From: Herbidospora daliensis
Lineage (GTDB): Bacteria; Actinomycetota; Actinomycetes; Streptosporangiales; Streptosporangiaceae
Reading direction: 5' to 3'
NCBI RefSeq assembly: GCF_001570585.1
Contig: NZ_BBXF01000003.1
Span: 283,353-347,352 of the forward strand
DNA: 64,000 nucleotides
Below the pieces are notes generated by a model. It ran no database searches, was not told the origin of the DNA, and saw only the letters and a program-made list of their open reading frames with translations. Of this stretch, positions 7,122 to 48,995 are shown one piece after another (the stretch's first letter is position 1; each line of letters starts with the position of its first letter). A program made the translations under genes and the position numbers.

Positions 7122-7132
7122 GGACGCCCGAC

Positions 7133-16100: not shown

Positions 16101-16228
16101 CGCTGGCCACGACCATCGAGGCCCTCACCTCCGGACCGAAACCGGCGGGCGAGAACGGGGGCAGCCACGTCCGCGCGCAGCTCCGCCGCTCGGGCCTGGA
16201 GTCGTCGGCCTCCCGCCGACGCAGATGA
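7133..16228 (+). CDS. Bimodular type I polyketide synthase: KS-AT-KR-ACP-KS-AT-KR-ACP
   Basis: 3031 residues from ATG 7133, chosen because GAGGA lies about 8 bp upstream; an in-frame GTG at 7118 overlapping the previous stop is the alternative. Module 1: KS Cys185 in SYCSTS, AT Ser638 (GYSLGE) with HAFH at 738, KR near 1140-1380 with an intact Ser/Tyr pair, ACP Ser1421. Module 2: KS from about 1487 with Cys1658 in TFCSTS, AT Ser2122 with HAFH at 2221, KR from about 2645 with Tyr2799, ACP Ser2958. The KS sites have CSTS instead of the usual DTACSSS. In the second KR the third glycine of the nucleotide motif is Ala (TGGLGGIA). The N-terminus is acidic (ADDVVDEES) and the C-terminus basic (SASRRRR), with no recognisable docking helices. 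Each module should add a malonyl-type unit and leave a hydroxyl. Confidence 0.95.
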   Translation: MGADDVVDEESAGTDIAIVGMSGRFPGAPGVAELWAAIRAGRSGVTRFTDEELRAAGVPDDLLADPGYVKAGAVIDGVELFDAGFFGFSPKEAQILDPQHRLFLEHSWEALEDAGCDPTRFDGAIGVFGGSAWSSYLQNNLVPSEVSAIMGELAVGLANDKDSLTTRVSHTLGLTGPSYSVQSYCSTSLVAICAAASSLAAFESDLALAGGVAVGVPHRVGYLYQQGGIAPPDGECRAFDAGGLGAPLGSGVGVVALRRLEDALADGDQIYAVIRGWAVNNDAGRKVGFTAPGVQGQAAVMAEALAAAGLTPADIDYVEAHGTGTALGDAAELAALQQVFRGQDLLIGSVKPNVGHLDRAAGVTNLIKAALALRNGEIPPTRNLSTPNAQLGAGEARLDVVTDLRAWPDAAGRTRRAGVSAFGIGGTNAHVVLEQAPRTARPADAPRPQLLIWSARSAKAADELTGRLADHLAGAPDLRLGDVAHTLAAGRRVFEHRRFLVAATAGEAADGMRDAGVLGRAESRADRPVGFLIPGTGEQYPGLAEDLYATEPAFRAALDECRTILRTRMDGADPLEEMLRPRDTRAGGGLGALLGRDAAPSAAMPTALLHPALFSVEYALATTLIGWGVTPAVLAGYSLGEYVAACLAGVLSLESALALVAHRATLIDALPEGVMSAVPLGAADLAARIARAGVAGVDVAAENGPDLTVLAGEPAAMDEVRALLAADGIPCRPLATGHAFHSRMMEPVRAELTAWIAANVELAAPRIPYVSNVTGELITDAQAVDPGYWAEHMCAPVRFDAVLGTLLAQGDHALLELGPGQSLGAMVRAHRDCPRDRWPLVVPTLPAAADPRPAGTVLAEAVGRLWLAGVPIDWTGYRHDRPAAKVGLPTYPFQRERYWIDAPAGRPAEAPRLAADPDHVQLLETRWAAEPLPAETDATGRHVLFADGTGVADALAQALRADGGDVVTVHAGAAFAEVPGGFTIDPASAADHVALARRLAEGGPAVVTDLRLLDPGGGPDGRAVVPLARLLDAFGDEGGDRTRVVIVTQGGQAVAPGERADPAQAAAATLPIIGNQEYLALDCRGVDLDPRAGAAGHAGVLAAELRRASSDVLAAYRNGRRHVREFAAAKAAPEKRTGVRPGGTYLITGGLGDVGLLVGEHLIRAGAGRLILTSRSGPRGDGADRLRALGAEVLTPRVDVTDAAAMRAMLADVGRVDGVVHAAAETGPDTFLPLRDVTEAAVERHFSAKVTGARVLAEVLPELDFCVLFSSTSAILGGIAFGSYSAANAALTALAGRPGWTAASWDTWSVTLERLEGGMGASMAAHSMTAAESLAALDQVITIGRPAVVVAAGGLTDRLPAVAAETGPAYAAERFPRPELPQPYSPPLTGTERGLAELWSEVLGVEPVGTRDNFFDLGGNSLVALQMLALVKKRFGVAVPTVLLFEAPTVNRLAAILDERGAATPVVKPAAKPAAPVAATRSDDDRRIAIVGMAGRFPGAGDVDAFWRNLHDGVESISFFTPEELRAAGVDEALVHDPSYVPARPILDDVAGFDAQFFGISPRMAAITDPQQRLFLEVCWEALEHAGYGAPEHRGRVGVYGGANISTYLLHMGERLMREDEDVSHYEIIMGNDKDALTTTVSYLFDLHGPSVAVQTFCSTSLVATHLAVQSLRAGDCEMALAGGVSIRVPDKVGHVFGPGGMESPDGHVRTFDAQARGSMFGDGAAVVLLKRLSDAIRDGDHVWAVIRGSAMNNDGALKVGYTAPSVVGQARVIADAMADADVTGEDISYVEAHGTATELGDPIEVAALTRAFGPTGETGYCPIGSVKTNVGHLDRAAGASGLIKTSYALKNQVIPASLHYTAPNPEIDFDNSPFYVNAELSPWRTRDGRPRIAGLNSLGMGGTNVHMVIEEAPARPAAAEDGTGRRHQILPVSARNAVAAEEAARRLGEHLAASPGTRLADAAYTLQVGRKTFEHRKVAVATTTSDAVRVLTGDGLLSRVDTVQGRQTAFLFAGVGEQYPGMVTEIHRREPVFRAALDECLEVLRGPLDGVDLPGLVAGGRGAAADLAVLLGRATGDKADDRAATLRRTEIAQPALFAVEYALARTLMAWGVQPRLMLGYSLGEYVAACLAGVLSLPDALALVAHRAALISTLPAGSMVAVSMPAEDVRRKFRLERRGLDLAAVNGPQVSVVAGPADEMERLVAELRRAEIPCRALETTHAFHSRMLRPVAGELTDWVKANVRLNPPELPYISNLTGELADADLVCDPGYWAEHMCGTVRFGTGVETLLADPELAVVEIGPGQSLGALVRGAGCPPQRWPLILHALPGGSDPRPDDEALAGCLARLWLVGAELDWNAYHGRLPDAGTDGLPGRIPLPTYPFQRRRYWIEGTPGPAGPKTKPSALESGSIFDAITSLPKLPEEQWLHLPVWRQTAAPAPGADQPATWLVFTREGAADEVTADLAATGATVVQVRPGEGYAATGDGHTVRPGNVADALALLRDLRAAGRGLDRVVHLWNLEPGDGPVENTVEYGLHTLVALARAAGESGVDGWSLDIAVRGTQEVLPGEVRDPDGSTLLGPALVIPLEYPRVTTRFIDLDTPSGLAAELARPQTDRIVALRRGRRYLPGYETMATPEAAPLRDGGVYLITGGLGGIALGLAERMARDVKARLVLLARSGLSGRPEAARRVEAIGDLGGEVEIVVGDVSDPAAVKRAVDTAIERFGALHGVLHAAGLPAMGLMQFKRPRELDAVLAPKIAGTRALEEALRIGEPDEIELDFLALFSSITSATGGGPGQVDYCAANAYLDGYALRLAATGRNVVSIDWGEWTWNAWEAGLAGYDEGLQTFFKENRARVGIGFEEGYRSLLRALASGEPRVVVSTQDFETVVTGSALFNLEAVTAPAGAGAPGDRHPRPELVTPYQEPSGPKEEAIAAIWGEALRLDRIGVLDNFFELGGNSLLGVSIVAALRREFALAELPPHILYEAPTVAALATTIEALTSGPKPAGENGGSHVRAQLRRSGLESSASRRRR

Positions 16229-16256: not shown

Positions 16257-17105
16257 ATGACCCTTATCGGTGTGGTGGGCGCCGGCGTGATGGGCGTCGG
16301 CGTGGCCCAGAACCTGGCCCAGACCGGCCACGAGGTGGTCCTGGTGGACAAGGACGAGGAGATCCTCGCCGCGGCCCGCGCCACCATCTGGCGCAACGCC
16401 AGGATGAGCCGCCTGATGGGCGGCCCGGCGCTGGACCCCGATGACGTGCTGTCCCGGATCACCACCGCGGTGGGCGCCGAGGCGGTCGCCAAGGCCGACG
16501 TCGTCATCGAGAACGTGACGGAGAACTGGGACGTCAAGCGGGCGGTCTACGAGACGATGGACGCGGTCTGCGGGCCCGACACCGTCTTCGTGGTCAACAC
16601 CTCGGCGATCCCGATCACCAAGGTCGCCGCCGTCACCGGCCGCCCCGACAAGGTCGTCGGGGTGCACTTCATGAACCCGGTCCCGGCCAAGCCGGCGTGC
16701 GAGCTGATCCCCGGCTTCCACACCACCGCCGAGACCGTCGAGCGGGTCCGCGACCTGCTGTCGGCGATGGGCAAGAAGGCCATCGACGTCAAGGACGCCT
16801 GCGGCTTCGTCTCCAACCGCGTCCTGATGCTCACCGTGAACGAGGCCGCGTTCCTCGTCCACGAGGGCGTCGCCACCGCCGAGTCGGTCGACGAGGTGTT
16901 CCGGAGCTGCTTCGGCCACCCGATGGGCCCGCTGGAGACGGCCGACCTGATCGGCGTCGACACGATCCTCTACAGCGTCGAGGTGCTCTACGAGCACTAC
17001 GCCGACAGCAAGTACCGGCCCTGCCCGCTGCTCAAGCAGATGACCGACGCGGGCCTGCACGGCCGCAAGTCGGGCCGCGGTTTCTACACCTACGACGCCA
17101 ACTAA
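16257..17105 (+). CDS. 3-hydroxyacyl-CoA dehydrogenase-like enzyme of hydroxymalonyl/methoxymalonyl-ACP synthesis (FkbK-like)
   Basis: 282 residues, the size of the 3-hydroxybutyryl-CoA dehydrogenase family. The NAD-binding motif GAGVMG is at 8-13, and the family motif around NPVPAK is present in the middle. In FK520-, ansamitocin- and zwittermicin-type clusters this family oxidises the C3 hydroxyl of ACP-bound glycerate on the way to an alpha-hydroxylated malonyl-ACP. The assignment rests on the gene order: it directly precedes a free ACP, an acyl-CoA dehydrogenase and an FkbH-like protein. It starts 28 bp after the bimodular PKS gene, with GGAGAGG before the ATG, so it is probably co-transcribed with it. 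An unrelated fatty-acid role is unlikely in this context. Confidence 0.9.
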   Translation: MTLIGVVGAGVMGVGVAQNLAQTGHEVVLVDKDEEILAAARATIWRNARMSRLMGGPALDPDDVLSRITTAVGAEAVAKADVVIENVTENWDVKRAVYETMDAVCGPDTVFVVNTSAIPITKVAAVTGRPDKVVGVHFMNPVPAKPACELIPGFHTTAETVERVRDLLSAMGKKAIDVKDACGFVSNRVLMLTVNEAAFLVHEGVATAESVDEVFRSCFGHPMGPLETADLIGVDTILYSVEVLYEHYADSKYRPCPLLKQMTDAGLHGRKSGRGFYTYDAN

Positions 17106-17115: not shown

Positions 17116-17364
17116 ATGTCCGCCAACGCCAAAGAGCAGATCCTCGACTTCGTGCGCGCCCGCTACCCGCAGGCGGAGATCGACGAGACCCAGGACATCT
17201 TCGCCCTGGGCTTCGTGAACTCGCTGTTCGCCATGGAGCTGGTGATGTTCATCGAGAAGACGTTCGAGGTCACCATCCCCAACGACGAGTTGAAGATCGA
17301 CAACTTCCGGTCGGCCGAGACCATGTCGGAGCTGGTCGACCGGCTTTCGCCCGCACGAGTCTGA
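17116..17364 (+). CDS. Free-standing acyl carrier protein for extender-unit synthesis (FkbJ-like)
   Basis: 82 residues, one carrier domain. The predicted phosphopantetheine attachment residue is Ser36 in GFVNSLFAM, a variant of the usual GxDS typical of the FkbJ group of ACPs, rather than of PKS or fatty-acid ACPs. It lies 10 bp after the dehydrogenase and 1 bp before the acyl-CoA dehydrogenase gene. Its expected role is to carry the glyceryl unit loaded by the FkbH-like protein and to present the finished hydroxymalonyl unit to a PKS acyltransferase. It needs activation by a phosphopantetheinyl transferase, for which the Sfp-type gene 3 kb downstream is a candidate. Confidence 0.92.
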   Translation: MSANAKEQILDFVRARYPQAEIDETQDIFALGFVNSLFAMELVMFIEKTFEVTIPNDELKIDNFRSAETMSELVDRLSPARV

Positions 17365-17365: not shown

Positions 17366-18514
17366 ATGACGACCCAGGCTGAGATCGCGCCGGGCGTGCT
17401 CCAGGTCACCGACCGGAAGTCCGCCCGGGCGTTCGTCGACACCCACATCGTCCCGTACGCCGACGCGTACGACCGGCAGGGCCGGGTCCCCGAGGAGCTC
17501 CTGGAGCGGATGACCGCCGCCGGGCTCTGGGCCCCCTTCCTCCCCCGGGACACCGGGGGAGGGGGCATGGACCTGGTCACCCTCGGCGAGGTCCACGAGG
17601 AGGTCGGCCGAGGCTGCTCCTCGGTGCGCAGCCTGCTGACCGTCCACACGATGGTGTCGTGGGCGGTGCAGCGGTGGGGCAGCCCGGCGCAGCGCGAGCA
17701 GTGGGTGCCGGCGCTCGGCCGGGGAGACGTGCTCGCCGCGTTCTGCCTGTCCGAGCCCGGCGCCGGCAGCGACGCCTCCGGGATCGCCAGCAACGTCGTG
17801 GAGAAGAACGGCGGCTGGGTGCTCAACGGCGTCAAGAAGTGGATCACCAACGGCCAGCGGGCCGACCTGTTCCTGGTCTTCGCCCGCACGGCCACCAGCA
17901 TCGGGGCGTTCCTGGTCCCCAGGGACACCCCCGGCGTCGAGGTGACGCCGATCGAGGACGTGCTCGGCACCCGGGCGTCGATGATCGCGGAGATCTCCTT
18001 CCGCGACGTCGCGCTCGGCCCCGACGCGCTGCTCGGCCCGAGCGGCTTCACCGCCGGCATGGTGCTGACGGGCACCCTGGACCTCGGCCGCTACAGCGTG
18101 GCGACCGGCTCGGTCGGCATCATCCAGGCGGCGCTGGAGGCCTGCGCCGCGTACGCCTCCCGCCGCACCGTCGGCGGGTCGCTCCTCAAGGATCTGCCGC
18201 TGATCCAGGCGAAGCTCTCCGACATGGTCACCGACGCGCGGGCGGCCCGGCTGCTCGTCGCGGAGGCCGGCCGCCTCAAGGACGCCGGGGAGGCGTCCAC
18301 GATCATGGCGACCTGGGTGGCGAAGTACTTCGCCTCCACCGCCGCCGCCCGGCACGCGTCCGAGGCGGTCCAGATCCACGGCGCGAACGGCTGCGGCCAC
18401 GACTACCCGGTGGCGCGGCTGTACCGGGACGCCAAGGTCATGGAGATCATCGAGGGCAGCAACGAGATCCAGCGCATCACCATCGCCGGCCAGGCAGAAC
18501 GGGAGATCATCTGA
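17366..18514 (+). CDS. Acyl-CoA/acyl-ACP dehydrogenase of the hydroxymalonyl-ACP pathway (FkbI-like)
   Basis: 382 residues, the normal length for a single-domain FAD acyl-CoA dehydrogenase. Family motifs include LSEPGAGSDASG for FAD and substrate binding and, near the C-terminus, EGSNEIQR with the probable catalytic base Glu363. In FkbI-type pathways this flavoprotein works on the ACP-bound glyceryl-derived intermediate to give the carboxylated, alpha-hydroxylated unit. The start ATG lies 1 bp after the ACP stop, and the stop overlaps the next start (TGATG), so translation of the cassette is tightly coupled. Confidence 0.92.
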   Translation: MTTQAEIAPGVLQVTDRKSARAFVDTHIVPYADAYDRQGRVPEELLERMTAAGLWAPFLPRDTGGGGMDLVTLGEVHEEVGRGCSSVRSLLTVHTMVSWAVQRWGSPAQREQWVPALGRGDVLAAFCLSEPGAGSDASGIASNVVEKNGGWVLNGVKKWITNGQRADLFLVFARTATSIGAFLVPRDTPGVEVTPIEDVLGTRASMIAEISFRDVALGPDALLGPSGFTAGMVLTGTLDLGRYSVATGSVGIIQAALEACAAYASRRTVGGSLLKDLPLIQAKLSDMVTDARAARLLVAEAGRLKDAGEASTIMATWVAKYFASTAAARHASEAVQIHGANGCGHDYPVARLYRDAKVMEIIEGSNEIQRITIAGQAEREII

Positions 18515-19575
18515 TGACCGTGATTGACCTCAGAAAACCGGCGCAGGGCCGGATCAAATGCGTGGTCTGGGACCTGGACAACACGCTCTGGGACGGCGTG
18601 CTGCTGGAGGACGGCGACGTCGCCCTGCGGCCCGAGGTGGTGGCGCACATCCACCGGCTCGACCAGATGGGAGTGCTGCACTCGATCGCCAGCAAGAACG
18701 ACGGCGCCGCCGCGCGGGAGAAGCTGCGCGAGTTCGGCCTCGACGAGATGTTCCTGCACCCGCAGATCAACTGGAACGCCAAGTCCGAGTCCATCGCGCG
18801 CATCGCGAAGGCGCTCAACCTCGGGCTCGACGCCTTCGCCTTCGTCGACGACCAGGAGTTCGAGCGCGGCGAGGTCGGCCACAGCCTGCCGGCCGTCACC
18901 CTGGTCGACATCGTGGATCTGGAGGAGGCGCTGGCCCGGCCGGAGTTCATCCCCCGGTTCGTCACCGACGAGTCGGCCCAGCGCCGCCCCATGTACCAGG
19001 CGCAGGCCGCGCGCGACGACCTGGAGTCGGGCTTCGTCGGCACCAACGAGGAGTTCCTGGCCGGGCTGGAGATGCACTTCACGATCGCCCCCGCCGTACG
19101 GGACGACCTCCAGCGGGCCGAGGAGCTGACGGTCCGCACCAACCAGCTCAACTCGACCGGCCGCACCTACTCCTACGAGGAGCTCGACGAGCTGCGCGGC
19201 TCGCCCGACCACCTGCTGCTGGTCGCCTCCCTGACCGACCGGTTCGGCAGCTACGGCAAGATCGGCCTCGCCCTGGTGGAGAAGGGCGAGCAGGTGTGGC
19301 GGCTCAACATGATGCTGATGTCCTGCCGGGTGATGTCCCGCGGCGTCGGCATGGTGCTGCTCAACCACATCATGCGGCTGGCCCAGGCGGCCGGGGTGAG
19401 CGTGCGCGCCGACTTCGTCGAGACCGGCCGCAACCGGATGATGCAGATCACCTACGCCTTCGCGGGCTTCCGCGAGGTGAGCAGAGACGGCGTCCACGTG
19501 GTGCTGGAGGCCGACCTGAGCACCGTCCAGCCGCCACCGCCCTACGTCCACTTGGAGATCGTCGATGAGCTTTGA
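18514..19575 (+). CDS. FkbH-like HAD-superfamily glyceryl-ACP forming protein
   Basis: 353 residues. The HAD nucleophile motif DLDNT is at 20-24 (Asp20, Asp22), followed by SKND and FVDDQ, as in FkbH, and a C-terminal half that fits the acyltransferase-like part of the family. FkbH proteins take the glyceryl group from 1,3-bisphosphoglycerate and load it on the dedicated ACP, the committed step towards methoxymalonyl- or hydroxymalonyl-ACP. Its start overlaps the stop of the dehydrogenase gene (TGATG), and its end overlaps the thioesterase start by 11 bp. The FkbG-type O-methyltransferase that usually accompanies this set is absent here. Confidence 0.94.
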   Translation: MTVIDLRKPAQGRIKCVVWDLDNTLWDGVLLEDGDVALRPEVVAHIHRLDQMGVLHSIASKNDGAAAREKLREFGLDEMFLHPQINWNAKSESIARIAKALNLGLDAFAFVDDQEFERGEVGHSLPAVTLVDIVDLEEALARPEFIPRFVTDESAQRRPMYQAQAARDDLESGFVGTNEEFLAGLEMHFTIAPAVRDDLQRAEELTVRTNQLNSTGRTYSYEELDELRGSPDHLLLVASLTDRFGSYGKIGLALVEKGEQVWRLNMMLMSCRVMSRGVGMVLLNHIMRLAQAAGVSVRADFVETGRNRMMQITYAFAGFREVSRDGVHVVLEADLSTVQPPPPYVHLEIVDEL

Positions 19576-20344
19576 CGACGCGGCATCCCGGTGGATGCCG
19601 TTCGCGGGCCAGACCGGCGCCGGTCCCGGCGCGCTCGCGCTGTACTGCCTGCCGCACGCCGGCGGCGCCGCCTCCACCTTCCGGAGCTGGCAGCGCGTCC
19701 TGCCGGGCGTGGCCGTGCAGCCCATCCAGCTCCCGGGCCGCGACAGCAGGCTCAGGGAGCCGGCCTACGACCGGATGGGGCCGCTGGTCGCCGACCTCGC
19801 CGAGATCATCCAGGCGGACGTCTCGCTCGGCTCGATCGACCGCAGGTACGCCCTGTACGGCCACAGCCTCGGCGCGCTCGTCGCGTTCGAGCTGGCCCGC
19901 GAGATCCGCCGCCGCGGCGGACCGCCGCCGGTCCACCTGTTCGTCTCCGGATCCGTCGCCCCGCAGCTCGCCTACGAGGACGGCAAGCCGGTCGGGCAGA
20001 TGTCCCGGCCGGAGGTGGTCTCGATGCTCCGCGAGCTCGGCGGCACGCCGGAGTGGCTGCTGACCGACCCCGGCGTGCTCGACATGATCCTCCCGGCCGT
20101 GGTCGCCGACTTCACCATCAAGGAGACCTACGAGTACCGGGAGGAGAAGCCGCTGGACCTGCCCATCACGGCCATGCCCAGCACCGACGACTCCCGGATC
20201 AAGGCCGAGACCGTGACGCCCTGGGGGGAGCAGACCACCAGGGAGTACGAGCTCCAGCCGTTCGTCGGCGGCCACTTCGCGGTGTTCGAGCAGGCCGCGC
20301 TGGCCCACAAGCTCATCTCCAAAGCCCTGCTCAAATGGATGTGA
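19565..20344 (+). CDS. Type II thioesterase of the polyketide cluster
   Basis: 259 residues with the alpha/beta-hydrolase fold typical of stand-alone PKS/NRPS editing thioesterases. The nucleophile is Ser101 in GHSLG and the catalytic histidine is His237 in GGHF. Such enzymes remove aberrant acyl groups from carrier domains. No PKS protein in the window carries an integrated thioesterase, so a role in release cannot be excluded, but the sequence type is the editing one. It overlaps the FkbH-like gene by 11 bp and the phosphopantetheinyl transferase gene by 10 bp, so all three are probably made from one transcript. Confidence 0.93.
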   Translation: MSFDDAASRWMPFAGQTGAGPGALALYCLPHAGGAASTFRSWQRVLPGVAVQPIQLPGRDSRLREPAYDRMGPLVADLAEIIQADVSLGSIDRRYALYGHSLGALVAFELAREIRRRGGPPPVHLFVSGSVAPQLAYEDGKPVGQMSRPEVVSMLRELGGTPEWLLTDPGVLDMILPAVVADFTIKETYEYREEKPLDLPITAMPSTDDSRIKAETVTPWGEQTTREYELQPFVGGHFAVFEQAALAHKLISKALLKWM

Positions 20345-20967
20345 CGGAACCCTTCGTGTGGCGGGTCCACCTCGATCAGCCTGACGGCGCGAGGTGGGCC
20401 CCGCTGCTTTCCGGGCCCGAACGCGACCGCGCGGCGGCGCTGGCGACCCCGGTCGAGCGCCGCCGTTTCACGGTCGCGCACGGCGTCCTGCGGGCCGTCC
20501 TCGGACGGCTCACCGGCCGGCCGCCGGCCGAACTCGTTCTCGACGCGGAGGATAACGGCCGGCCCTTCCTCGTCGGCCGCCCGGTCGACTTCAACCTGTC
20601 GCACTCCGCGGAGTGGGCGCTGATCGGGGCGGTCGGCCCGCACCTGCGGGTCGGCGTCGACGTCGAGCAGGTCCGCGACGACCTCGACCACCTGGCCATG
20701 GCCCGGCACCTCTACCAGCCGGCCGAGGTCGAGCGCCTGACCCGGGCCGCCTCGCCCCGGGAGGAGTACTTCCGGCTCTGGTGCGCCAAGGAGGCGTACG
20801 TCAAGGCGACCGGGGAGGGCCTGCCCGGCCTGCGGAACGCCCTGGTGACGCACGAAGGGAACGCGACGGTGGGTTCGTCGCGTTCCCTTCGCTGGATCGA
20901 GGTGGCGCCCGGCTACGCGGGCGCCGTCGTCACGACCGCTGGGAGACCGGCACCACGTACCGGTTGA
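20335..20967 (+). CDS. Sfp-type 4'-phosphopantetheinyl transferase
   Basis: 210 residues from ATG 20335, the usual size of the Sfp family. The magnesium-binding motif VGVDVE (Asp109) and the downstream WCAKEAYVK motif (Glu153, Lys157) are intact, as is the NLSHS substrate motif. It should convert apo-carrier domains of the PKS and the free ACP to the holo form using coenzyme A. It is the last gene of the + strand PKS operon. Its 3' end overlaps the end of the converging acyl-CoA dehydrogenase gene by 38 bp. The start chosen gives a 10-bp overlap with the thioesterase; a GTG at 20341 is an alternative. Confidence 0.93.
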
Positions 20968-22090
20968 ACACCAGGTCGCGCAGCACGTCGTCACCGCCCT
21001 CCACGATCGACACGTACCGCACGTCCCGCAGCAGCTTGCCGATCACCGCGTCGTGGGTGTAGCCGACGCCGCCGAACATCTCGGAGGCGGCCGAGGCGAT
21101 CTGCCAGCCGATCTGGCCGCAGAACATCTTCGTGGTCAGCGCCGCCTTCAGCGTGCCGACCCGGAGGAACTCCGCGGCCGCGTCGGGCCGGGCCGCGATC
21201 TCGTCGTAGCGGCGGGCCGCCGCCAGGCACTGGTTCGCCATCACGTCGATCTGCATCTCGAACTGGCCCAGCTTGGCGGCGAACACCGCGTTGCCGGCCA
21301 GGATGGCGCCCTTGACCTGCTTGGACCTGCCGTACTCCAGGCACACGTCCCGGATCCGGCGGGCGATGCCGAGCGCCGTGGTGGCGATCAGGATGCGGCT
21401 GGCGTTCAGCCCCACCTCCAGCAGCCGCAGCCCGTTGCCGCGCAGCACGTTCTCCGCCGGCACCCGCACGTCGGTCAGCGTCACCTGGTAGGTCGCCGAG
21501 GAGCGCAGCCCCAGCACGTCCCAGCGTTTGTCGATCCGGATGCCCGGCGTGTCCCGGGGGACCAGCACCGCGAGGTACCCGGCCGGGTCGTGCTCGGCGC
21601 GGGCGACCACCACCAGGAACTCGGCGAAGTCGGCGTTCGTGGAGAACGCCTTCTCCCCGTTCAGCACGACGTCGGTCCCGTCGCGGCGGGCCGTCGTGGT
21701 GATCCTGGCCAGCTCGCTGCCCGCCGCGTGCTCGCTGCCGAGCGTCGCGCAGAAGCCGCTCCCGGCCACCAGCTTGCCCAGGTAGTGCTCCCGCAGGCCG
21801 GGGGAGCCGTACCAGGACACCATGCTGGTGGTCAGGACCGGGATGAACAGGGTGAACGCGGCGCCGGCGTCGGCGTAGGCGAGTTCGGCGACGATCTGCA
21901 CGCCGTCCTCCAGGCCGAGGCCGGGGCCGCCGTACTCCTTCGGCACCCACCAGTTCGCCAGGCCGGTGTCGGCGAACCGCTCGTACAGCGGGAGCGGCGC
22001 CTCGGCCAGCGAGTCGAGGTAGGCGTCCTTGCCGATGAGCTCCCGGCGCGCGAACGCCTGGACGGCCCGCACGTGCTCCGGCTGCCTCAT
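20930..22090 (-). CDS. Acyl-CoA dehydrogenase family flavoprotein linked to the PKS
   Basis: 386 residues with a full acyl-CoA dehydrogenase domain. It has [11 protein letters not shown] in the FAD/substrate region and, near the C-terminus, EGGDDVLRD with the probable catalytic Glu. It differs clearly from the FkbI-like protein of the same cluster. It is the third gene of a - strand operon: its ATG overlaps the stop of the AT-less PKS gene (ATGA), so it is translationally coupled to it. In other PKS clusters such enzymes desaturate a carrier-bound acyl chain or starter; which of these applies here cannot be read from the sequence. The 3' end overlaps the converging phosphopantetheinyl transferase gene by 38 bp. 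Confidence 0.9.
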
Positions 22091-25000
22091 CCGGTCTCCC
22101 GTTCGTCGAGCAGCTCGGCCAGCATGCGCACCGTCGGGCACTCCAGCAGTCCCGTCACCGGGACCGACGCGTTCAGCGACTTGCGGATCCGGGTGGTCAG
22201 CTCGATCGCGAGCAGCGAGTGGCCGCCCAGCTCGAAGAAGTTGTCGGTGGCGCCGATCGGCTCGATGCCCAGCACGCGCGACCAGATCTCGGCCAGCGCC
22301 GCCTCGGTGCCCTCCTTCGGCTCCACGTAGGGGTTGTTGAGGTCGGGTCTCGGGTGGCGTTCCTGGTCGTCGGGGCTGTCGTCGGCGCCGTGGATGTCGC
22401 CGGTGACCCACTGCGCCAGCCGGCCCTCCAGCGGGCCGGTCGAGATGACCAGGTGGCCGACCCGGTCGGTGGAGGCCAGGGCCCGCTCGAAGACGTCGAC
22501 GCCTTCGGCCGGGGCCATCGCGAAGCCGACGACGGCCTCGCTGTGGCCTTCGAGACGGGTGGCGTCGATGCTCCAGGTGTCCCAGTCGACGGTCACCCAG
22601 CGGCCGCCGCCCGCCACCCGGGCCTGGCGGATGTAGGCGTCCAGCGCCGCGTTGGCCGCCGCGTACGGCGCGAGCGTCATGCCGCCCAGCACCGCCGCGA
22701 TGGACGACAACGTGATCCGCCGGCCGGCCGCGTGCCCGCCGAGCACCTTCTCCAGCACGTGGAAGCCCTTGACCTTGGTGGCCAGGTGGGCGTCGCACTG
22801 GGCGCGGTCCATCAGGTGGGCGAAGTTGAAGTACGCCCCGTCCTGCACGCCCGCGCCGTGCACCGCCACGTCGATCCCGCCGAACCGCTCGACCGCGGCC
22901 TCGACCACGGCCGCCATGCGCTCCTCGTCGGCCACGTCGGCCGACAGGCAGAGCACGGTCGCGCCCCGGCTCTCCAGGTCCTGGATGTTGCGGATGTGCC
23001 GGGCGGTGCGCTCGCCCCCGGAGGGCGTCTCCGCCAGGAACGACTCCCACTCCTCGCGGGGCGGCAGCGGCGACCGGGCGGTGAGCACCAGGTTGCAGCG
23101 GTACGCGGCGGCCAGGTGGCGGGCGAGCACGAGCCCGACGTCGCCGAGGCCGCCGGTGATCAGCACGGTCTCGCCGTCCTTGATCGGGCGGGTCTCGTCG
23201 GTCAGCTCCTCGGTCGGGAACTGCTCGTAGGCCCGCGCCCAGGTCTCGCCGGCGCGGACCGCGACCGGGCCCTCGTGCGGGGCCAGGATCGCGGCGAGGA
23301 TCTGCACCGACTCGTCGCCGGCCGGAGAGGGGTCGGCGTCGATCGTGCGGGCCCGGATCCGCGGGTTCTCCTGGGCCAGGCTGGGGGCCAGCGCCGCGAG
23401 AGTGGCGTGCTCCGGGTGGCGCAGGTCCGAGCCGAGCACGCCGACCGCCCCCGAGGTGAGCAGGGCGAGCTCGGCGCGCGGCGCGGAGCCGCTGTTGTCG
23501 ACCAGTTCCCTGGCCAGCGCCAGCACGGAGTAGAAGCCGCGGCGCTGCTCGGCGTCGAAGTGCGCCGACGGGTCGTCGTCCGCCCCCGGCTCGGCCGAGG
23601 CCAGGCTGAACGCGTGGACGATCGCACGGGGCGCGGCCAGCAGCGAGTACATGAGTTCGGCCATGTCGTCGGGCTGGTCCAGCCTGACGGTGAAGTCGCC
23701 CGCGTCGTCCTGCTCGAAGCTCTCGCCGCTCCGCACGGCCGTGACCTCGGCGCCGGCCGCGTTCAGCCGGTCGATCAGGGCCTCGCCCCGGGCGTCGTCG
23801 GCGAAGACCAGCCAGGGGCCGGCCGCGCGCAGCCGCTCGTCCAGGCCGGCGACCGGGAACGGGCGCTGCTTCCAGGTCGGCAGGTACGTCCACTTCGACC
23901 GGTCGAACGTCTTGTCGTTGCTCACCGGCGCGGCCTGCGCGTTCGGGCTGGCCTTCACCCAGTAACGGCGCTTCTGCCACGGGTAGGTGGGCAGCTCGAC
24001 GCGGCGGCCCGCGCCCCGGTGCAGCGCGGTCCAGTCGATCGTGCTGCCGGCCTGCCACAACCGGGCCAGCGTGGCCAGCAGCCACTCGGCCGCGGGCACC
24101 CCGTCGACGGGGGCGACGACGATCTCCTCCGACGCCTGGCCGGCGTCGTCGCGCGTCACCTGCACGCCGAGCCGGCGCAGCCCGTCGGCCAGCGCGCCGA
24201 CCGCGTCGTGCCGGTCGGTGCCGTCCTCGATGCCGATCACGGCGTCGACCGCCGCGAGCAGCTCCGGCCCCCAGGTCTCCGGCACGGCCTCCGGCGTGAC
24301 CAGGCGCACCTTCGGGTTGCGGCGCTGGGTCTTGGCGTTGATCCAGCGGGCGGGGTCGGTCAGCGCCACGACCGCGTCGTCGCGGTCGGCGACCACGATC
24401 GCGCGCCGCAGCGCGAACCCGCCGCGCGACATCTGCAGGGTGAACGCCACGTCCGCGACGTCCTCGCCGGAGTCGCCGGCCAGATATCCGGCCAGCCGCT
24501 CGCCGAGCGCGTTGAGCGCGTTCTCGTCGCCCGCCGAGAAGGTCAGCAGGTGCGGGCCCGGCCGGTTCGGGCGGGCCTCGCGCGGCGGCGCCTGCTCCAG
24601 CACCACGTGCGCGTTGGTGCCGCCGAGGCCGAACGAGCTGACCCCGGCCCGGCGCGGGTGCGGGCCCTCCGGCCACGGCCGGTGCTCGGTCAGCACGGTG
24701 AAGCGGTCCTGCGCGGTGGCCAGCGCCGGGTTCGGCTGGGCGTAGTCGGGCACCCCCTGGAGCAGCTCGTGCTTGAGGCTCAGCGCCGCCCGCATCAAGC
24801 CGGTCACGCCGGAGGCGCGGTCGAGGTGGCCCAGGCTCGGCTTCAGCGAACCGAGCACGGCCGGGGTCTCGCGCGGCTGGGTGAACACCCGGTTCATCGC
24901 GGCCAGCTCGATCGAGTCGCCCAGCATGGTGCCGGTGGCGTGGCACTCGACGTACCCGATGGTGTCGGGCTTGACCCCGGCCACGCCGAGCGCCGTCTCG

Positions 25001-25881
25001 ATCACGTCGGCCTGGCCGTCGACGCCCGGCGCGGTGTACCCGGCCCGCATGCGGCCGTCGTTGTTGGACGCCGACCCGAGGATGACGGCGTGGATCACGT
25101 CGCCGTCGGCGAGCGCGTCGGCCATGCGCTTGAGCGCCACCGTGCCGACGCCGCTGCCCATCACGGTGCCGCCCGCCTCGGCGTCGAAGCTGCGGACCTT
25201 CCCGTCGGGCGACATGATGCCGCCCTGCTCGTACAGGTACCCGGCGGGCTGGGGGAGCGGGGTGAACGCGCCGCCGGCCAGCGCCATGTCGCACTCGTAG
25301 GTCAGCAGGCTCTGGCAGGCCAGGTGCACCGCCACCAGCGACGTGGAGCAGAACGTCTGCACCGACACCGCCGGCCCGCGCAGCCCCAGCTTGTACGACA
25401 CCAGGTTCGCCAGCGAGTCGCGCTCGTTGCCGATCGCCATCAGCATCGCGCCGCCGGGCTGGCTCGCCTGGTGGAAGATGTTCTTCACGACGTAGTCGGG
25501 GAACCCGCAGCCGCCGAACACCGCGACCTGCCCCGGCACGTCGGTGGGGCAGTAGCCGGCCGCCTCCAGGGCCTCCCACGAGCACTCCAGGAACAGCCGG
25601 TGCTGCGGGTCCATCATCTCGGCCTCGCGCGGGTTGATGCCGAAGACCCCCGCGTCGAAGTGCTCCAGGTCGGCCAGCGGGCCGCCGATCCGCACGTAGC
25701 GCGGGTCGGCGATCTGGCCGGGCTCGACGCCGGTCTCGCGCAGCTCCGCGTCGGTGATCTCGCGCAGCCCCTTGATCCCGGACAGTACGTTGCGCCACAG
25801 GTCGGCGACGCTGTCGGCGCCGGGGAATCGACCGGACATGCCGATCAGCGCCACCGCCGAGGCGTAGTCGGTTTCCGTCAT
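22087..25881 (-). CDS. Type I polyketide synthase module lacking an acyltransferase: KS-KR-ACP
   Basis: 1264 residues. The ketosynthase (about 8-435) has Cys178 in TFCSTS, His314 in ECHATGT and His352 in GHLDR. The usual KS-AT linker follows (to about 510), and the post-AT linker ([13 protein letters not shown], then [12 protein letters not shown]) begins near 600. Only about 90 residues lie between them, where the sister protein has about 350. No GxSxG nucleophile, HAFH motif or AT opening motif is present, so the AT has been deleted cleanly. The ketoreductase (about 885-1110) has TGGLGDVG and an intact Ser/Tyr pair; the ACP Ser1222 is in LGGHSL. The module must be loaded in trans or act without extension. 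Start and stop overlap both neighbours by ATGA. The N-terminus is acidic (MTETDYAS). Confidence 0.95.
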
Positions 25882-28800
25882 GACGTCCTTCCGCTCCGGA
25901 GCATGTTCCGCCGCTGTTCGATGCGCGAGGTGCGCTGCTGTTCGCGCACGTCGGCCGTCTGCTCTTCGTTGGCCTCGCCCGCGGTGGCCGCTTCGGCCAG
26001 CGACGAGATGGTGGGCGACTGGTAGAGGATGTGCGGGGGGAGGTAGGTCAGGCCGAGCGTCTTGCGCACGTCCGCGATGATCTCCATGCCGAGCAGCGAG
26101 TTGCCGCCGAGCTCGAAGAAGTTGTCGTGGACGCCGACCGATTCGAGGCCGAGCGCCTCGGTCCACACCTCGGCGATCTTCTCCTCGGTCTCGTTCTGGG
26201 GCTCGACGAACGCGGTCGACAGGTCGGGCCGGGGGTGCCGGCCGAACGCGTCCCTGAGCTTCTTGACCGTCGCCTGGTGGCTCTCGATCGACGACTTGCG
26301 GCTCATCGCGACCAGCGGAGCGAAGTCCTGCGTCGAGGTGACCACGTGCCGCTCACCGCTGTTCAGCACCCGTACCAGCGCCTCGAAGCCGTCCTCGAAG
26401 CTGAGCCCGAACAGGCCCCGGTACCAGGTGAAGTACTGCTTGGAGCCCTCGTCGTAGTTCTCCAGGCCCTCGGTCCAGCCGTTCCACGTCCACTCGCACC
26501 AGTCGACCGAGGTGACCAGCGCGCCGGGCAGCGGGTCGCTGAGCGCGAAGGAGTCGAGGAACGCGTTGGCCGCGCAGTAGTCGACCTGGCCGGCGCCGCC
26601 GCCGGTGGCGGAGGTGGTGGAGGAGTAGAGGGCCAGGAAGTCGACCGGCACGTCCTTGAGCACCTCGGCCAGGGCCAGCGAACCGGCCACCTTCGGCGCG
26701 AGCGTGCGCTCGATGTCGGCCACGGTCTTGAACTGCATCAGGCCGACCGCCGGCACGCCCGCGCAGTGCAGGACTCCGTTGAGCCCGCCGAACCGCTCGA
26801 CCGCCGCGTCGACCGCCCGCCGCACGTCGGCGACCTTCGACACGTCGCCCGCCACCGTGACGACCCCGACGCCGCGCGCCTCCAGCCGGCGCAGCCCCTC
26901 GACGCGCCGCCGCACCTCGTCTGCGGTGCCGGGGGCGGCCAGGATCTGGTTCCACTGGTCCTTCGGCGGCACCGGGGTGCGGCCCAGGAGGACCAGGTTG
27001 GCCTGGTACTTCTCGGCCAGCAGCTCGGCCATGCCCAGGCCGATGCCGCCCAGGCCGCCGGTGACCAGGTAGGTCCCGCCGCGCCGGACGTCCACGACCG
27101 GGTCGGTCCTGTCGATGTTGGCGGCGTCCAGCACCTCGTAGCCCGGCGTCCAGCGGCGGCCCTCGCGCAGCGCGACGACCTGGTCGGCCGGGTCGGCCCG
27201 CAGCTCGGCCAGCAGCCCGCGCAGGGCGGCCGGCGAGGTGCCGGCGTCGGCGTCGATGAGACGGGTCTTGACCCTCGGGTACTCGACCGGGATGAGCCGG
27301 GTCGGGCCGAGCAGCGTGTTGCGCTCCGGGATGACGTCGTCGCCGGTCAGCACCTTCTGGCTGCCGACGGTGACGATGTCCAGCGCCCAGGTCGGCAGGC
27401 CGAGGTCGACCGCGGCGCGGGCGAAGGAGACCAGCGTGTAGAGGCCGCGCTTCAGGCACTCCTGGGTGGCGTCGCCCTCGGCGGGGGCCGGGTCGGCGGT
27501 CCAGAGGTGGACGACCCGCTCCGGCTGGAAGCCCCGCTCGCCCAGGGCGCGCAGCGCGGCGACGACGTCCTCCTGCGAGCCGGGCCGCACGACGAACGCG
27601 TCAGGGTCCTCCCGGTAGGCGTCGCCGGGCCGGACCAGCACGACCTCGTGGCCGAGGGCGTCGAGCGCGGCGCGCACCGAGCCGGTCAGCGTGTCGGCCA
27701 GGCCGGCGTCGGTGAAGAGCAGCCACTTGGTCTGCTCCTCCTCGCGCACCAGCTGGGGCGCGGTCTGCCGCCACACCGGGACGTTGATCCACCGCTCGTC
27801 CGGCAGGCGCGGCAGCGCGGTCGCGATGCTGGTGGGGTCGCTCTCGTCGAGCATGGGCACGCCGGTGCCGAGCGCCGCCTGGTCGATCTCCAGCCAGTAG
27901 TCCTGGCGGTCGAACGGGTAGGTCGGCAGCGGCACCCGGCCGGGATCCCAGCCGTCGTGGAGGGCGTCCCAGTCGATCGGCACGCCGGCCAGCCAGAGCT
28001 TGCCGACGGCGGTCGCGGTGGCGGCGAGCGTCTCCACCTGGTCGCCCTGGCCGGGCAGGGTGGTGACGATCAGCGGCCACTGGTTGCGGTCGCAGTCGGG
28101 GTGGCCGCGGGTCAGCGCGCCGAGCGACTGGCCGGGGCCGATCTCGGTCAGGGTCATGTCGCCGCCGCGCAGCACGTGCGCGAGCCCGGCGCCGAACTCG
28201 ACCGTCTCGCACATGTGGCGGGCCCAGTAGCCGGGGTCGGTGACCAGGTCGGCGGTGGCGATCTCGCCGGTGACGTTGCTGACGTACGGGATGACCGGCG
28301 GGTTCAGCGTCACGTTGGCGGTGATCCAGGAGGTCAGCTCGGCCGCGACGGGGTCGAGCATGCGCGAGTGGAACGCGTGCGTGGTCTGGAGGCGGCGGCA
28401 GCCGATCTCGGCCGCCCGCAGCCGCTCGGCGGCGGCCTCGACGGCGTCCTCCGGCCCGGCCAGCACGAGCTGCGAGCCGGTGCGGACCGCGACGTCGAGG
28501 CCGAGGTCGCCGAGCACCGCCTTCAGCCGCTTCTCGTCGGCGGCCACGGCCAGCATGCCGCCCTCCGGCTGGGAGGTGATCAGCTTGGCCCGGTAGGCGA
28601 CCAGCTTGAGCGCGTCGGCCAGCGACAACACCCCGGACAGGCAGGCCGCGACGTACTCGCCGAGGCTGTAGCCGACCATGATCTCCGGCTTGACGCCCCA
28701 GCTCATCAGCAGGCGGGCCAGCGCGTACTCGGCGACGAAGACGGCGGGCTGGATGAGGTGCGCGTTCGGGTCCGACGCGGGGGCGGCGGTTCCGGTCCGC

Positions 28801-30599
28801 CCGAGCAGCGCGGCCAGGTCGGGGGCGCTCGCGGGCCCGGCCGGCACGAAGACGTCGGACAGCTGGGACGCCTCGGTGAGGCCCAGCAGGCTGACGCACT
28901 CGTCGACGTCGGCCCGGAAGCGCGGCTCGGTCTCGTACAGGGCGGCGACCATGCCCGGGTACTGCTCGCCGACGCCGGCGATCAGGAACCCGGTCTTGCG
29001 GCCGACCGCCGTGTCGGTCCGGCCCAGTGGCCCGGCCGGGTCGGTGAGCAGCGCGGCGGCTTTGGCGTTGCCGTCGGCGACGACCACCTTGCGGTGGTTG
29101 AAGACCTTGCGGCCCTTCTGGAGGGTGTACGCGACGTCGCCCAGGTCCACGCCGGGGTCCGCGGCGATGCTCTCGCCCAGACGCACGGCCATCCGCTCGG
29201 CGGAGGCGGCCGACCGGGCCGACACCGGGAGGATCTGCCAGCGGCGCGGCCGTTCCGGGCGCGGGGCCGGAACGGGCGCCTCGACGATGATCGCGTGCGC
29301 GTTCGTGCCGCCCATGCCGAGCGAGCTGATCCCGGCGATGCGCGGCCGCTCGGCGCTGCGCGGCCAGGGAGTCGGGGTGGCCGTGACGTAGAACGGGCTG
29401 GTCTCGAAGTCGATCTCGGGGTTCGGCGAGGTGTAGTGCAGCGTCCCGGGGATCAGCTCGTGCCGCAGCGACTGGACGACCTTGATCAGGCCCGTCACGC
29501 CGGAGGCGCGGTCGAGGTGGCCGACGTTCGGCTTGATCGAGCCGAGCACGCAGTACTGCTTCTTCTCCGTCTGGCCGAACGCCTTGGTCAGCGCCGCGAC
29601 CTCCATCGGGTCGCCGACCTCGGTGGCGGTGCCGTGCGCCTCGACGTAGCCGATCTGCGACGGGTCGACGCCCGCCTTCTCGATCGCCTTGGACACGCAG
29701 CGGCGCTGGCCGTCGATGCTGGGGGCCAGGTAGCTGAACTTCATCGCGCCGTCGTTGTTGATGGCCGAGGCGCGGATCACCGCGAGCACGGTGTCGCGGT
29801 CCTCGATCGCCTTGCCCAGGCGCTTCAGCGCGACCACGGCAGCGCCGTCGCCGAACATGCTGCCCCGGCCCTGCGCGTCGAAGGTGCGCACGTGGCCGTC
29901 GGGCGACTCCTGGCCGCCCTCCTCCCACAGGTAGCCGGTCCGGTCCGGGATGCGGACCGAGACGCCGCCCGCGAGCGCCATGTCGCACTCGTCGCGGCGC
30001 AGCGCCTCGCTCGCCAGGTGCACCGCGACCAGCGAGGTCGAGCAGAACGTCTGCACGGTCACGCTCGGCCCCGACAGGTCGAGCCGGAACGAGACGTTCG
30101 TGGCGAGCGAGTCCTTGTCGTTGCCGATCATCAGCGCGGACGTGTCGATGCCCATGGCGAACGCCTGGAGCCGGGTCAGCAGGTAGCCGCTGATGTTCAT
30201 GCCGGCGAACACGCCGACCGAGCCGCGGCTCTCCGGCGAGCCGTACCCGGCCGACTCCAGCACCTCCCACACGCATTCGAGGAAGAGCCGCTGCTGCGGA
30301 TCGGCCAGCGTGGCCTCGCGCGGGTTGTAACCGAAGAACGCCGCGTCGAAGCCGCGGATCTCGTCGAGAACCGGCCGGCTCCGGACGTAGTTCGGCTTCG
30401 AGAACGTCGCCGCCGGCACGCCCGCCTCGATGAGTTCCTCATCGGAGAAACGCGTGAAGGATTCGACCCCGGTGCTGATGTTCCGCCAGAAAGTCTGGAC
30501 GTCATTTGCTCCCGGGAATCGACCGGCCATGCCGATGATCGCAATATCGGACTCGTCCGCGGGGTATTGCGAGCCGCCAGGTGGATGTTGCTGATCCAT
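25878..30599 (-). CDS. Modular type I polyketide synthase, one module: KS-AT-KR-ACP
   Basis: 1573 residues from ATG 30599, preferred over the in-frame GTG at 30617 because AGGGG lies 7 bp before the ATG. KS: Cys186 in TFCSTS, followed by EAHGTAT and NVGHLDR. AT: opens with GVGEQYPG, Ser645 in GYSLGE, HAFH at 741-744, so malonyl-type selection is expected. [10 protein letters not shown] near 1160, with intact Ser and Tyr (QVDYCAAN). ACP: Ser1501 in LGGNSL. The C-terminal tail is long, charged and basic at its end ([13 protein letters not shown]), with no standard docking helices. It is the first PKS gene of the - strand operon and is coupled to the AT-less module by ATGA. Its domain order and motifs are very close to module 2 of the bimodular + strand protein, suggesting duplication. 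Confidence 0.95.
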
Positions 30600-30641
30600 C
30601 AACACGCCCCTATTCACCGAATTTTTTAAGTGGGAATTCTT

Positions 30642-31436
30642 TTAGAGCAGCCCGCCGCGGCCCCAGCCGCGGGTGAGCCGGCGAATCGCGAAAACGCCGC
30701 AGACGAGCGCGATCCCCAGCAGGATCGCCGCGGGCAGCATCGTCCCGGCCGTGTCGCCGACGACGGCGGCCTGCAGCATCTTCAGGGCCCAGTAGCCCGG
30801 GGACAGCTGCGCGGCGACCTGCGCCCACTCGGGCATCAGGCTCAGCGGCACCAGCGCCCCGCCCAGGGAGCTGAGCGTCAGCGCGCCCACGTCGGCGATC
30901 ACGCTGAGCTCGCCGTGGCTGCGCACGATCGCGGCCAGCAGCGCGCCGATCGCCAGCAGCGTGAACGCCCAGACCAGGATCGACCCCAGGACCAGCGGGA
31001 CGTTCCCGGGCACGGGCAGGCCGATGACCAGGCAGCCGTACACCAGCAGGATGCTCTGCTGCGCGATCATCACCACGTAGATCGGCAGGGTCTTGCCGAT
31101 CAGCAGCTCGGCGGCCGGCGCCCGGCTCACCCGGAGCCGGTCCCAGGTCTTCCAGGTGCGCTCGGCCAGGATCGCGTTGCCCGCGATGGAGATCGCGAAC
31201 ACCGAGAACATGACCAGCAGCCCGGTCACCACCTTGGTGGTGCCGCCCTCGACCGCGCGGACGTACAGCGGCTTCAGGACCAGCATCAGGACCATCGGCA
31301 TGACCACGTAGCTGATCGTCTGGCCGGGGTCTCGGAGCCGGATGAGCGTGTTGTTGCCCGCCAGGGCGCGGATCCGGTAGAGGGACTCGCGCAGGGCGGC
31401 GGTCGGCCCCGGTCGGTAGCCGGTGTCAAGGAGCAT
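30642..31436 (-). CDS. ABC-2 type transporter permease of a drug/metabolite exporter (DrrB-like)
   Basis: 264 residues with about six hydrophobic segments and the layout of ABC-2 export permeases (a long cytoplasmic N-terminus, then paired membrane helices). It overlaps the end of the ATPase gene by 11 bp and stops about 40 bp before the PKS start, so exporter and PKS genes form one - strand operon. Export of, and self-resistance to, the polyketide is the natural inference; the substrate is not shown by the sequence. Confidence 0.88.
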   Translation of the reverse strand: MLLDTGYRPGPTAALRESLYRIRALAGNNTLIRLRDPGQTISYVVMPMVLMLVLKPLYVRAVEGGTTKVVTGLLVMFSVFAISIAGNAILAERTWKTWDRLRVSRAPAAELLIGKTLPIYVVMIAQQSILLVYGCLVIGLPVPGNVPLVLGSILVWAFTLLAIGALLAAIVRSHGELSVIADVGALTLSSLGGALVPLSLMPEWAQVAAQLSPGYWALKMLQAAVVGDTAGTMLPAAILLGIALVCGVFAIRRLTRGWGRGGLL

Positions 31437-32262
31437 CGCTGACCGCCAGGGATCGGTAGAGGTCGTCCAAGGAGGGGTTGTGGACCTCGATCGTGCTGAT
31501 GGGCCGCTCGGCGCGGCCCAGCAGGTCGATCAGGGTGGCGGCCGGCTGCGTGGTGGAGACGCGGACCTCCTCCTCGTTGTCGTGGATCAGCCGCACCTCC
31601 CCGGGCAGCCCGTCGACCAGCTCGTCGTAGGTGCCCCGCGCGATGATCTTCCCGCTGCGGGCCACCGCGATGGTCGCCTGCAGCTCGACCAGTTCGGGCA
31701 GGTAGTGGGTGGTGTAGACGATGGCCGCGCCGTCGCCCGCCCGCTGCTTGACGACGTCGAGCATCGCCTCGCGGGTCTCCAGGTCGGCGCCGGCGGTCGG
31801 CTCGTCGAGCAGCAGCAGACCGGGCCGGTGGATCAGCGCGGTGGCCGCCTGGACCCGCCGCTGCTGCCCGCCCGACAGGCCCGCCGTCCTGCGGTCGATG
31901 AACGAGCCGAGCCGCAGCGCCACGGTCAGCTCCTCGATGGCGCCGTCGAGCGCGGCCCGGCGCAGCCCCGCGAGCTTCCCGAACAGGTTGAGGTGCTCGC
32001 GCACGGTGACGGACGGGTAGAGCGCGATGTGCTGCGGCGCGACGCCCACCCGCCCCCGGCTCGCCGACGGCGGACGCCCGTCGATGGTCACGTGACCGGC
32101 GTCCTGACGGATCAGGTACGACACGATCTCCACGAAGGTCGTCTTGCCCGCGCCGTTGTGCCCGACCAGGCCGACGATCTCCCCGGCCGCCACACTCAGG
32201 CTGAATCCGTCCAGCGCCAGGACCGGGCCGTATCGCTTGACAAGATCGATGGCGTGCAGCAA
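31426..32262 (-). CDS. ABC transporter ATP-binding protein of a drug/metabolite exporter (DrrA-like)
   Basis: 278 residues from a TTG start at 32262, chosen because a ten-base perfect Shine-Dalgarno sequence lies 7 bp upstream and the conserved domain begins right after it. Walker A is GHNGAGKTT (near residue 35), the signature LSGGQQRR and Walker B LLLLDEPTAG; a C-terminal extension of about 70 residues is typical of DrrA-like subunits. It should energise the adjacent ABC-2 permease. As the first gene of the - strand PKS operon it is probably transcribed from the AT-rich region upstream. Upstream in-frame extension is possible but lacks conserved sequence. Confidence 0.9.
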   Translation of the reverse strand: MLHAIDLVKRYGPVLALDGFSLSVAAGEIVGLVGHNGAGKTTFVEIVSYLIRQDAGHVTIDGRPPSASRGRVGVAPQHIALYPSVTVREHLNLFGKLAGLRRAALDGAIEELTVALRLGSFIDRRTAGLSGGQQRRVQAATALIHRPGLLLLDEPTAGADLETREAMLDVVKQRAGDGAAIVYTTHYLPELVELQATIAVARSGKIIARGTYDELVDGLPGEVRLIHDNEEEVRVSTTQPAATLIDLLGRAERPISTIEVHNPSLDDLYRSLAVSDAP

Positions 32263-32266
32263 CGTG

Positions 32267-32276
32267 TCACCTCCTT
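32267..32276 (-). promoter_or_regulatory. Full-length Shine-Dalgarno sequence ahead of a TTG start
   Basis: Read on the - strand this is AAGGAGGTGA, a ten-base complement of the conserved end of 16S rRNA. It ends 4 bp, and its GGAGG core 7 bp, before the TTG at 32262. It fixes the start of the exporter ATPase. A maximal ribosome-binding site paired with a weak start codon suggests that initiation rate is set by the start codon or by leader structure. Confidence 0.85.
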
Positions 32277-32305
32277 GATTATTCACCTCGAAAAGACGCT
32301 TGCTT

Positions 32306-32321
32306 TTCGCGGGCCCGCGAA
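32306..32321. promoter_or_regulatory. Perfect 16-bp palindrome, possible operator of the PKS/exporter operon
   Basis: TTCGCGGGCCCGCGAA is a perfect palindrome. It overlaps one arm of another inverted repeat, a 7-bp stem at 32289-32295 and 32303-32309. It lies 44 bp upstream of the ATPase start, where a repressor would block transcription or where the RNA would fold into a leader hairpin. No adjacent TetR or MarR gene identifies a binding protein. Confidence 0.5.
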
Positions 32322-32357
32322 TTTGATAATTCGAATTCGACTGAAGAAATCGAGTTA

Positions 32358-45602: not shown

Positions 45603-45624
45603 GGCCGGGCCGCAAAGTGGCCGC

Positions 45625-48985: not shown

Positions 48986-48995
48986 AGGAGACCCG

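Follow-up and report, generated by a model that had tools for sequence, protein, structure and literature searches.

A polyketide synthase module without an acyltransferase in Herbidospora daliensis that may be loaded by the acyltransferases of its sibling modules

Results

The stretch of Herbidospora daliensis DNA analyzed here (contig NZ_BBXF01000003.1, positions 283,353 to 347,352 of the forward strand; 64,000 nucleotides, called the window) carries a polyketide synthase (PKS) gene whose product has ketosynthase (KS), ketoreductase (KR), and acyl carrier protein (ACP) domains and lacks the acyltransferase (AT) expected between KS and KR. The gene, referred to here as the AT-less gene, and the parts of its product are as follows:

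22087..25881, minus strand (25881 down to 22087): AT-less KS-KR-ACP protein, 1264 amino acids (aa) (Pfam); corresponds to s03-orf266, 'KS/KR/ACP', 1264 aa, in PMC4599437
24586..25860, minus strand: KS domain, Cys178, His314, and His352 intact (Pfam and alignment)
24361..24591, minus strand: retained KS-to-AT linker, residues 431-507 (PF22621, PF16197)
24082..24360, minus strand: remnant at the AT position, residues 508-600; least conserved stretch, of variable length among orthologues
23902..24081, minus strand: post-AT linker with LPTYP, residues 601-660 (alignment)
22564..23175, minus strand: KR domain (Pfam and alignment)
22102..22308, minus strand: ACP with Ser1222 (Pfam and alignment)

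Pfam places the KS at residues 8-374, the KS C-terminal extension with the KS-AT linker at 383-507, the KR at 905-1104, and the PP-binding domain at 1195-1258, and it gives no Acyl_transf_1 match in this protein; the overlapping upstream gene (25878-30617, minus strand) has Acyl_transf_1 at residues 544-829. The spacing from FTLQxxR to LPTYP is 150 residues, whereas the window's four siblings that carry an AT have 398-412, and the protein is thus short by about 250 residues at the AT site. The original prediction, made from the sequence alone, had described a KS-KR-ACP protein with both linkers, about 90 residues between them, and no AT motif; Pfam and the alignment with the siblings confirmed this architecture, and mapping the deletion against all four siblings left about 93 residues. 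A hidden, intact but divergent AT, named beforehand as the counterexample to look for, was rejected because a remnant of this length has no room for an AT and Pfam detects none. The AlphaFold model of the protein (21 sequences) is only fair overall, with a mean pLDDT of 60.8, and its best fold match is OzmQ KS1 (TM-score, 0.39).

A match to the AT-less stretch (52-100% identity) was found in 31 of 345 genomes from the order and in none of the other 314; it is in two pieces in G147, G169, G171, and G193, and the split in G193 is a contig break at the remnant, where absence of the AT is not verifiable. A scan of GTDB contigs yielded 74 loci, of which 31, from 30 genomes, are orthologous to the AT-less gene and belong to Herbidospora, Acrocarpospora, Nonomuraea, Planobispora, Planomonospora, Microbispora, Sphaerisporangium, Actinokineospora, Labedaea, and a Catenulisporales bin. 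The remaining 43 (L085-L127, 28-52% identity) are other KSs, and only L085, L092, and L094 of these entered the KS tree described below. The AT is missing in all 28 orthologues that could be aligned with the AT-less protein; this 29-row alignment omits L077 (frame change) and L081 and L084 (partial). Twelve checked residues are invariant in 29/29 sequences, including KS Cys178, His314, and His352, KR Ser1060, Tyr1073, and Asn1077, and ACP Ser1222. Mean identity is 0.89 for both KS and ACP and 0.63 for the remnant. The ratio of nonsynonymous to synonymous substitution rates (dN/dS) against four congeners is 0.21-0.30 for the whole gene. By part, the KS has 0.06-0.14, the KR 0.30-0.58, the ACP 0.07-0.55, and the remnant 0.35-1.65; the KS is under purifying selection. 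A dead gene was rejected on the invariant catalytic residues and low dN/dS, and with the checked KS and ACP residues all kept, the expectation of a live gene was borne out. Two further observations concern the AT-less stretch: in Nonomuraea dietziae the match shifts frame (L077:10732-10749), possibly by a frameshift or a sequencing error, and G140, which carries the main stretch, has a second, more distant one (G140:C51:126001-127032, 41-51% identity).

The genes around the AT-less gene form the rest of an assembly line and a cassette of FkbK, FkbJ, FkbI, and FkbH homologues:

2..2374, plus strand: end of the preceding module PKS C, with dehydratase (DH), KR, and ACP (Pfam)
2418..7121, plus strand: module M1, KS-AT-KR-ACP; AT GYSLG
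7121..16228, plus strand: modules M2 and M3, two KS-AT-KR-ACP; ATs GYSLG; start codon uncertain
16257..17105, plus strand: FkbK-like 3-hydroxyacyl-CoA dehydrogenase
17116..17364, plus strand: FkbJ-like free ACP
17366..18514, plus strand: FkbI-like acyl-CoA dehydrogenase
18514..19575, plus strand: FkbH (TIGR01686, 286 bits; cut-off, 146.65)
19565..20344, plus strand: free-standing thioesterase
20341..20967, plus strand: phosphopantetheinyl transferase
20930..22090, minus strand: ACAD2, acyl-CoA-dehydrogenase-like protein
25878..30617, minus strand: sister module, KS-AT-KR-ACP; AT signature GYSLG / HAFH / GCR
30642..32541, minus strand: ABC permease and ATPase

Left of the window, the contig encodes a KSQ-type loading module (TGQSSS), followed by PKS A, B, and C; Pfam finds DH and KR in A and C, and the composition of B follows the listing in PMC4599437. 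Most modules of the line carry their own AT (A, C, M1-M3, and the sister, and B by an AT search of L010), and the description of an otherwise cis-AT line held. The sister lies directly upstream of the AT-less gene in 27 of the 30 loci that cover that side, the exceptions being L075, L076, and L084; on the other side, an ACAD2 homologue follows in 29 of the 30 loci that reach it (with a query 20 residues short at its end). Homologues of the ABC pair occur in 30 of the 31 orthologous loci, and the thirty-first does not reach that side. Also left of the window, a condensation-domain-like protein and an acyl-AMP ligase (G000:C3:259605-263077) have homologues in the clusters of G346 and G968, with a further ligase homologue close to L075, and may belong to the pathway; further right, at 43308-50950, are a BTAD-type regulator, an NAD-dependent epimerase, and two glycosyltransferases. 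To our knowledge, no product of the Herbidospora cluster has been isolated.

The FkbK-J-I-H cassette, which stands next to PKS modules in the window, accompanies the AT-less gene in 29/30 genomes. All four genes lie inside the fetched locus at 27/31 orthologous loci; the L072 genome and the L081/L084 bin have FkbI and FkbH elsewhere in the genome, and the exception, L061, is a 13.7-kb contig whose genome beyond it was outside the search. The cassette is also a feature of the butyrolactol system. According to portions of PMC5355916, butyrolactol C1-C8 derive from glucose and not acetate, via a glycolytic three-carbon source that is 'possibly hydroxymalonyl-ACP', and entries in PMC5355916 and PMC5932044 list two AT-less modules, KS/KR/ACP and KS/DH/KR/ACP, among the last four of its PKS. 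By a colinear assignment of modules to carbons that we made here, these four modules would account for C1-C8, and the AT-less terminal module should add C1/C2, which carry no acetate label. Labeling and colinearity together support hydroxymalonyl use at the homologous position and are the strongest evidence on the unit used, though from a homologue; with the 29/30 co-occurrence, they support the suggested link between the AT-less module and the hydroxymalonyl-ACP cassette.

We examined the DNA around 12 of the 14 close FkbH genes found in 392 genomes of the genus of G406 (presumed Streptomyces). G968 has the layout of the window minus the sister, and G832 and G886 have the order KS-AT-KR-ACP, KS-AT-KR-ACP, KS-KR-ACP, FkbK-J-I-H, thioesterase. 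The terminal module of G566 (L194:6529-8430), beside the cassette, has a shortened AT that reads GQGVG, its catalytic serine gone, a possible intermediate of AT decay. In the remaining eight regions, the cassette stands beside other PKS or nonribosomal peptide synthetase-like genes. In six presumed Streptomyces genomes (L187-L192), an 835-925-codon frame with a GYSLG AT and an ACP lies immediately ahead of FkbK-J-I-H. The terminal open reading frame of G886 is 1,169 aa from the first Met, the same length as butyrolactol orf10-18, and the gene preceding its two-module gene (L204:11560 into L185) ends in a module with a truncated AT, GHGVG, that has likewise lost the catalytic Ser. G886 would thus match butyrolactol orf10-16 to orf10-18, a match of layout and a single exact length. 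In a KS tree of 59 rows, a single clade (100/100, 12 rows) unites the AT-less KSs of the H. daliensis protein's family with those of the G886 and G832 terminal modules; an AT-bearing Tengunoibacter module adjoins this clade, and M1, M2, and M3 each pair with one preceding G886 module (99/96, 100/100, and 98/85); the very long branch of row L191_15726 makes its placement meaningless. The modules of the polyol block, the part of the line that includes M1-M3 and the AT-less module, are therefore homologous one to one with those of G886, a butyrolactol-like cluster and not the named butyrolactol cluster, and the terminal one is AT-less.

These comparisons bear on two alternatives. The KS might use hydroxymalonyl for condensation while it is still bound to the free FkbJ-like ACP, bypassing any AT, or the module might pass the chain on unextended. 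The extender is already ACP bound, and the retained KS Cys and both His residues fit direct condensation, though not the pass-through version; neither version accounts well for the module's own ACP, which bears Ser1222 and is one of the best-conserved parts of the protein, and the butyrolactol carbon count requires the module to extend. We regard this alternative as very unlikely. An unlikely one is that the module adds plain malonyl, supplied by the general FabD or some other malonyl-CoA AT. FabD-size AT frames are present in the genomes searched (one or two free ones each in G346, G832, G886, and G968, of FabD size and not established as FabD), and, according to parts of PMC6164871, few discrete ATs with non-malonyl specificity are known, but the hydroxymalonyl cassette accompanies the AT-less gene, and the C1/C2 assignment above falls on carbons without acetate label.

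No stand-alone AT had been noted in the window, and this stood as far as the window was searched; the wider contig does hold one, at G000:C3:248889-249791, 34 kb left of the window and 58 kb from the AT-less gene. It belongs to a type-II-like set (G000:C3:241220-249794, L021:6220-14794) of a short-chain dehydrogenase/reductase, an ACP, a GcvT-like protein, a 746-aa KS protein, and the discrete AT; about 17 kb separate this set from the PKS genes to its right. Were this a dedicated trans-AT, the cluster would be an ordinary mixed cis/trans-AT line. The discrete AT occurs in 29/31 AT-less carriers of the order (its own genome and 28 others, 75-95% identity), and in 16 of these 29 it shares the AT-less gene's contig at a spacing of 57-62 kb. 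The exceptions run both ways, however. No orthologue was found in Sphaerisporangium album (G213/G347), Labedaea, Actinokineospora, or the Catenulisporales bin (best, 34-40% identity) nor in G193 (74% complete), all of them AT-less carriers, and none was seen in the 60 kb read of the Actinokineospora cluster. Conversely, 5 of the 314 genomes that lack the AT-less gene have the discrete AT (E <= 1e-50), and in two of these, G301 and G312 (74% identity), the surrounding 20 kb holds GcvT-like and KS genes and lacks any PKS module. Its signature, GHSVG / NAFH / KIV, resembles the malonyl-CoA FabD of S. coelicolor and not ZmaF. We had first favored this AT as the dedicated donor, then lowered it for these exceptions, and now consider it quite unlikely. 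The original prediction had left the donor as a separate or a neighboring AT; because some carriers lack the discrete AT, a neighboring one is favored over a separate one. The AT of the immediate sister as sole universal donor was rejected, there being no sister upstream of the AT-less gene in L075, L076, and L084.

The in-line ATs of the polyol block are distinctive. In five clusters, 15/15 resolved polyol-block ATs combine GYS[LV]G and a first carrier residue that is not basic, whereas GYS occurs in 0/10 resolved upstream ATs and a non-basic first carrier residue in 1/10 (Gln, PKS C). All 53 ATs found in the orthologous loci are GYSLG, and in the H. daliensis genome GYSLGE occurs in 4/20 ATs, all four inside the AT-less gene's cluster; three others read GHS. 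ZmaA-AT, which portions of PMC6164871 and PMC4207774 describe as an in-line AT taking hydroxymalonyl-ACP (ZmaF being a discrete AT for aminomalonyl-ACP), is the top-ranking solved match of the M3 AT. For the sister AT it ranks third, for M2 fifth, for M1 seventh, and for the PKS B control AT 28th. Counterparts of M2 and M3 are present in all five clusters read through the polyol block. A PKS of the Chloroflexota bacterium Tengunoibacter tsumagoiensis (L085) shares its KS types with M2, M3, and the AT-less module, and all four of its modules have GYSLG ATs.

Discussion

The reading we consider probable is that the AT-less protein is a working extension module of a butyrolactol-type polyol line, supplied from the hydroxymalonyl cassette and loaded in trans by the in-line ATs of its siblings. 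Judging from their families, FkbH, FkbJ, FkbK, and FkbI would make hydroxymalonyl on the free ACP, from which the ATs of M1-M3 and the sister would charge the ACPs of their own modules and, in trans, Ser1222 of the AT-less one. Its KS would then condense and its KR reduce, and the chain would gain one more pair of oxygenated carbons. We place the module at or near the end of the line, possibly as its last, and the line probably builds a polyhydroxylated polyketide.

Several observations weigh against this reading. The remnant is not plainly unstructured: in the AlphaFold model it is a small alpha/beta piece of fair confidence (block-mean pLDDT, 76-91). The discrete AT shares the contig of the AT-less gene at similar spacing in the 16 genomes mentioned above. 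The sibling ATs carry a malonyl-like HAFH and are listed as malonyl-type in entries of PMC4599437 and PMC5932044, those of M1 and M2 are nearer to other solved ATs than to ZmaA, and of the carrier positions in the sibling ATs the first is non-basic and the second Arg, half a match to the hydrophobic pattern of ZmaA/ZmaF. The closest FkbH of Tengunoibacter is about 200 kb off, and GYSLG alone is therefore no proof of hydroxymalonyl. Finally, G886 is tied to the butyrolactol cluster by layout and a single exact length.

More tentatively, we suggest that ATs are a shared service in hydroxymalonyl-polyol lines. If two in-line ATs can be enough to load four modules, selection on the other ATs would be relaxed, and they would decay repeatedly: the terminal AT lost once and early, a second loss in the G886 line (GHGVG), and a third decay in G566 (GQGVG). 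Such lines would drift from cis-AT to AT-less without recruiting a discrete AT.

The KS/KR/ACP architecture is already in print, and so are mixed cis/trans-AT lines, with 122 PKSs and 351 hybrids with nonribosomal peptide synthetases among 8,799 catalogued, according to part of PMC10394414. A literature search, mostly at the level of listings, returned no recognized report of AT sharing or of how the AT-less butyrolactol modules are loaded. What is noteworthy is that an old AT-less module persists without a discrete AT common to all carriers and is linked to an extender carried on an ACP. Loading by sibling ATs, if it occurs, would mean that such lines do not confine extender delivery to the module. 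It would account for the use of a rare ACP-bound extender at several positions in a row, show how a cis-AT line can drift toward modules that lack an AT with no discrete AT involved, and give engineers a natural example of a single AT acting on several ACPs. The reading also predicts a butyrolactol-like polyol from an uncharacterized cluster found in many Streptosporangiaceae.

Among known systems, the same gene is listed as KS/KR/ACP for the pks-1 cluster of five Herbidospora type strains in PMC4599437, where the relevant sections do not discuss the missing AT and the word hydroxymalonyl is absent. The AT-less ketosynthases OzmQ KS1 and OzmN KS2 of oxazolomycin (PDB 4oqj and 4wky) rank in the top four when solved proteins are compared by sequence with the AT-less protein; that system differs in having a discrete methoxymalonyl-ACP AT, OzmC, according to parts of PMC6164871. 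Zwittermicin likewise uses ACP-bound extenders, through ZmaF and ZmaA-AT, the latter reading GYSFG and standing nearest to the M3 AT among solved proteins, although the carrier motif of the Herbidospora sibling ATs fits by half only. The butyrolactol PKS of Streptomyces sp. TP-A0882 (second module of orf10-16, orf10-17, and orf10-18) differs in its starter and upstream modules; in Herbidospora, moreover, the AT-less gene lies on the opposite strand, the M1 AT is retained, the sister and ACAD2 are present, and the protein has a remnant that the G886 terminal module lacks altogether. As far as the listings in PMC5355916 and PMC5932044 go, the two systems share the AT-less terminal module, the cassette order 3-hydroxyacyl-CoA dehydrogenase, ACP, acyl-CoA dehydrogenase, FkbH, and thioesterase, and an ABC pair.

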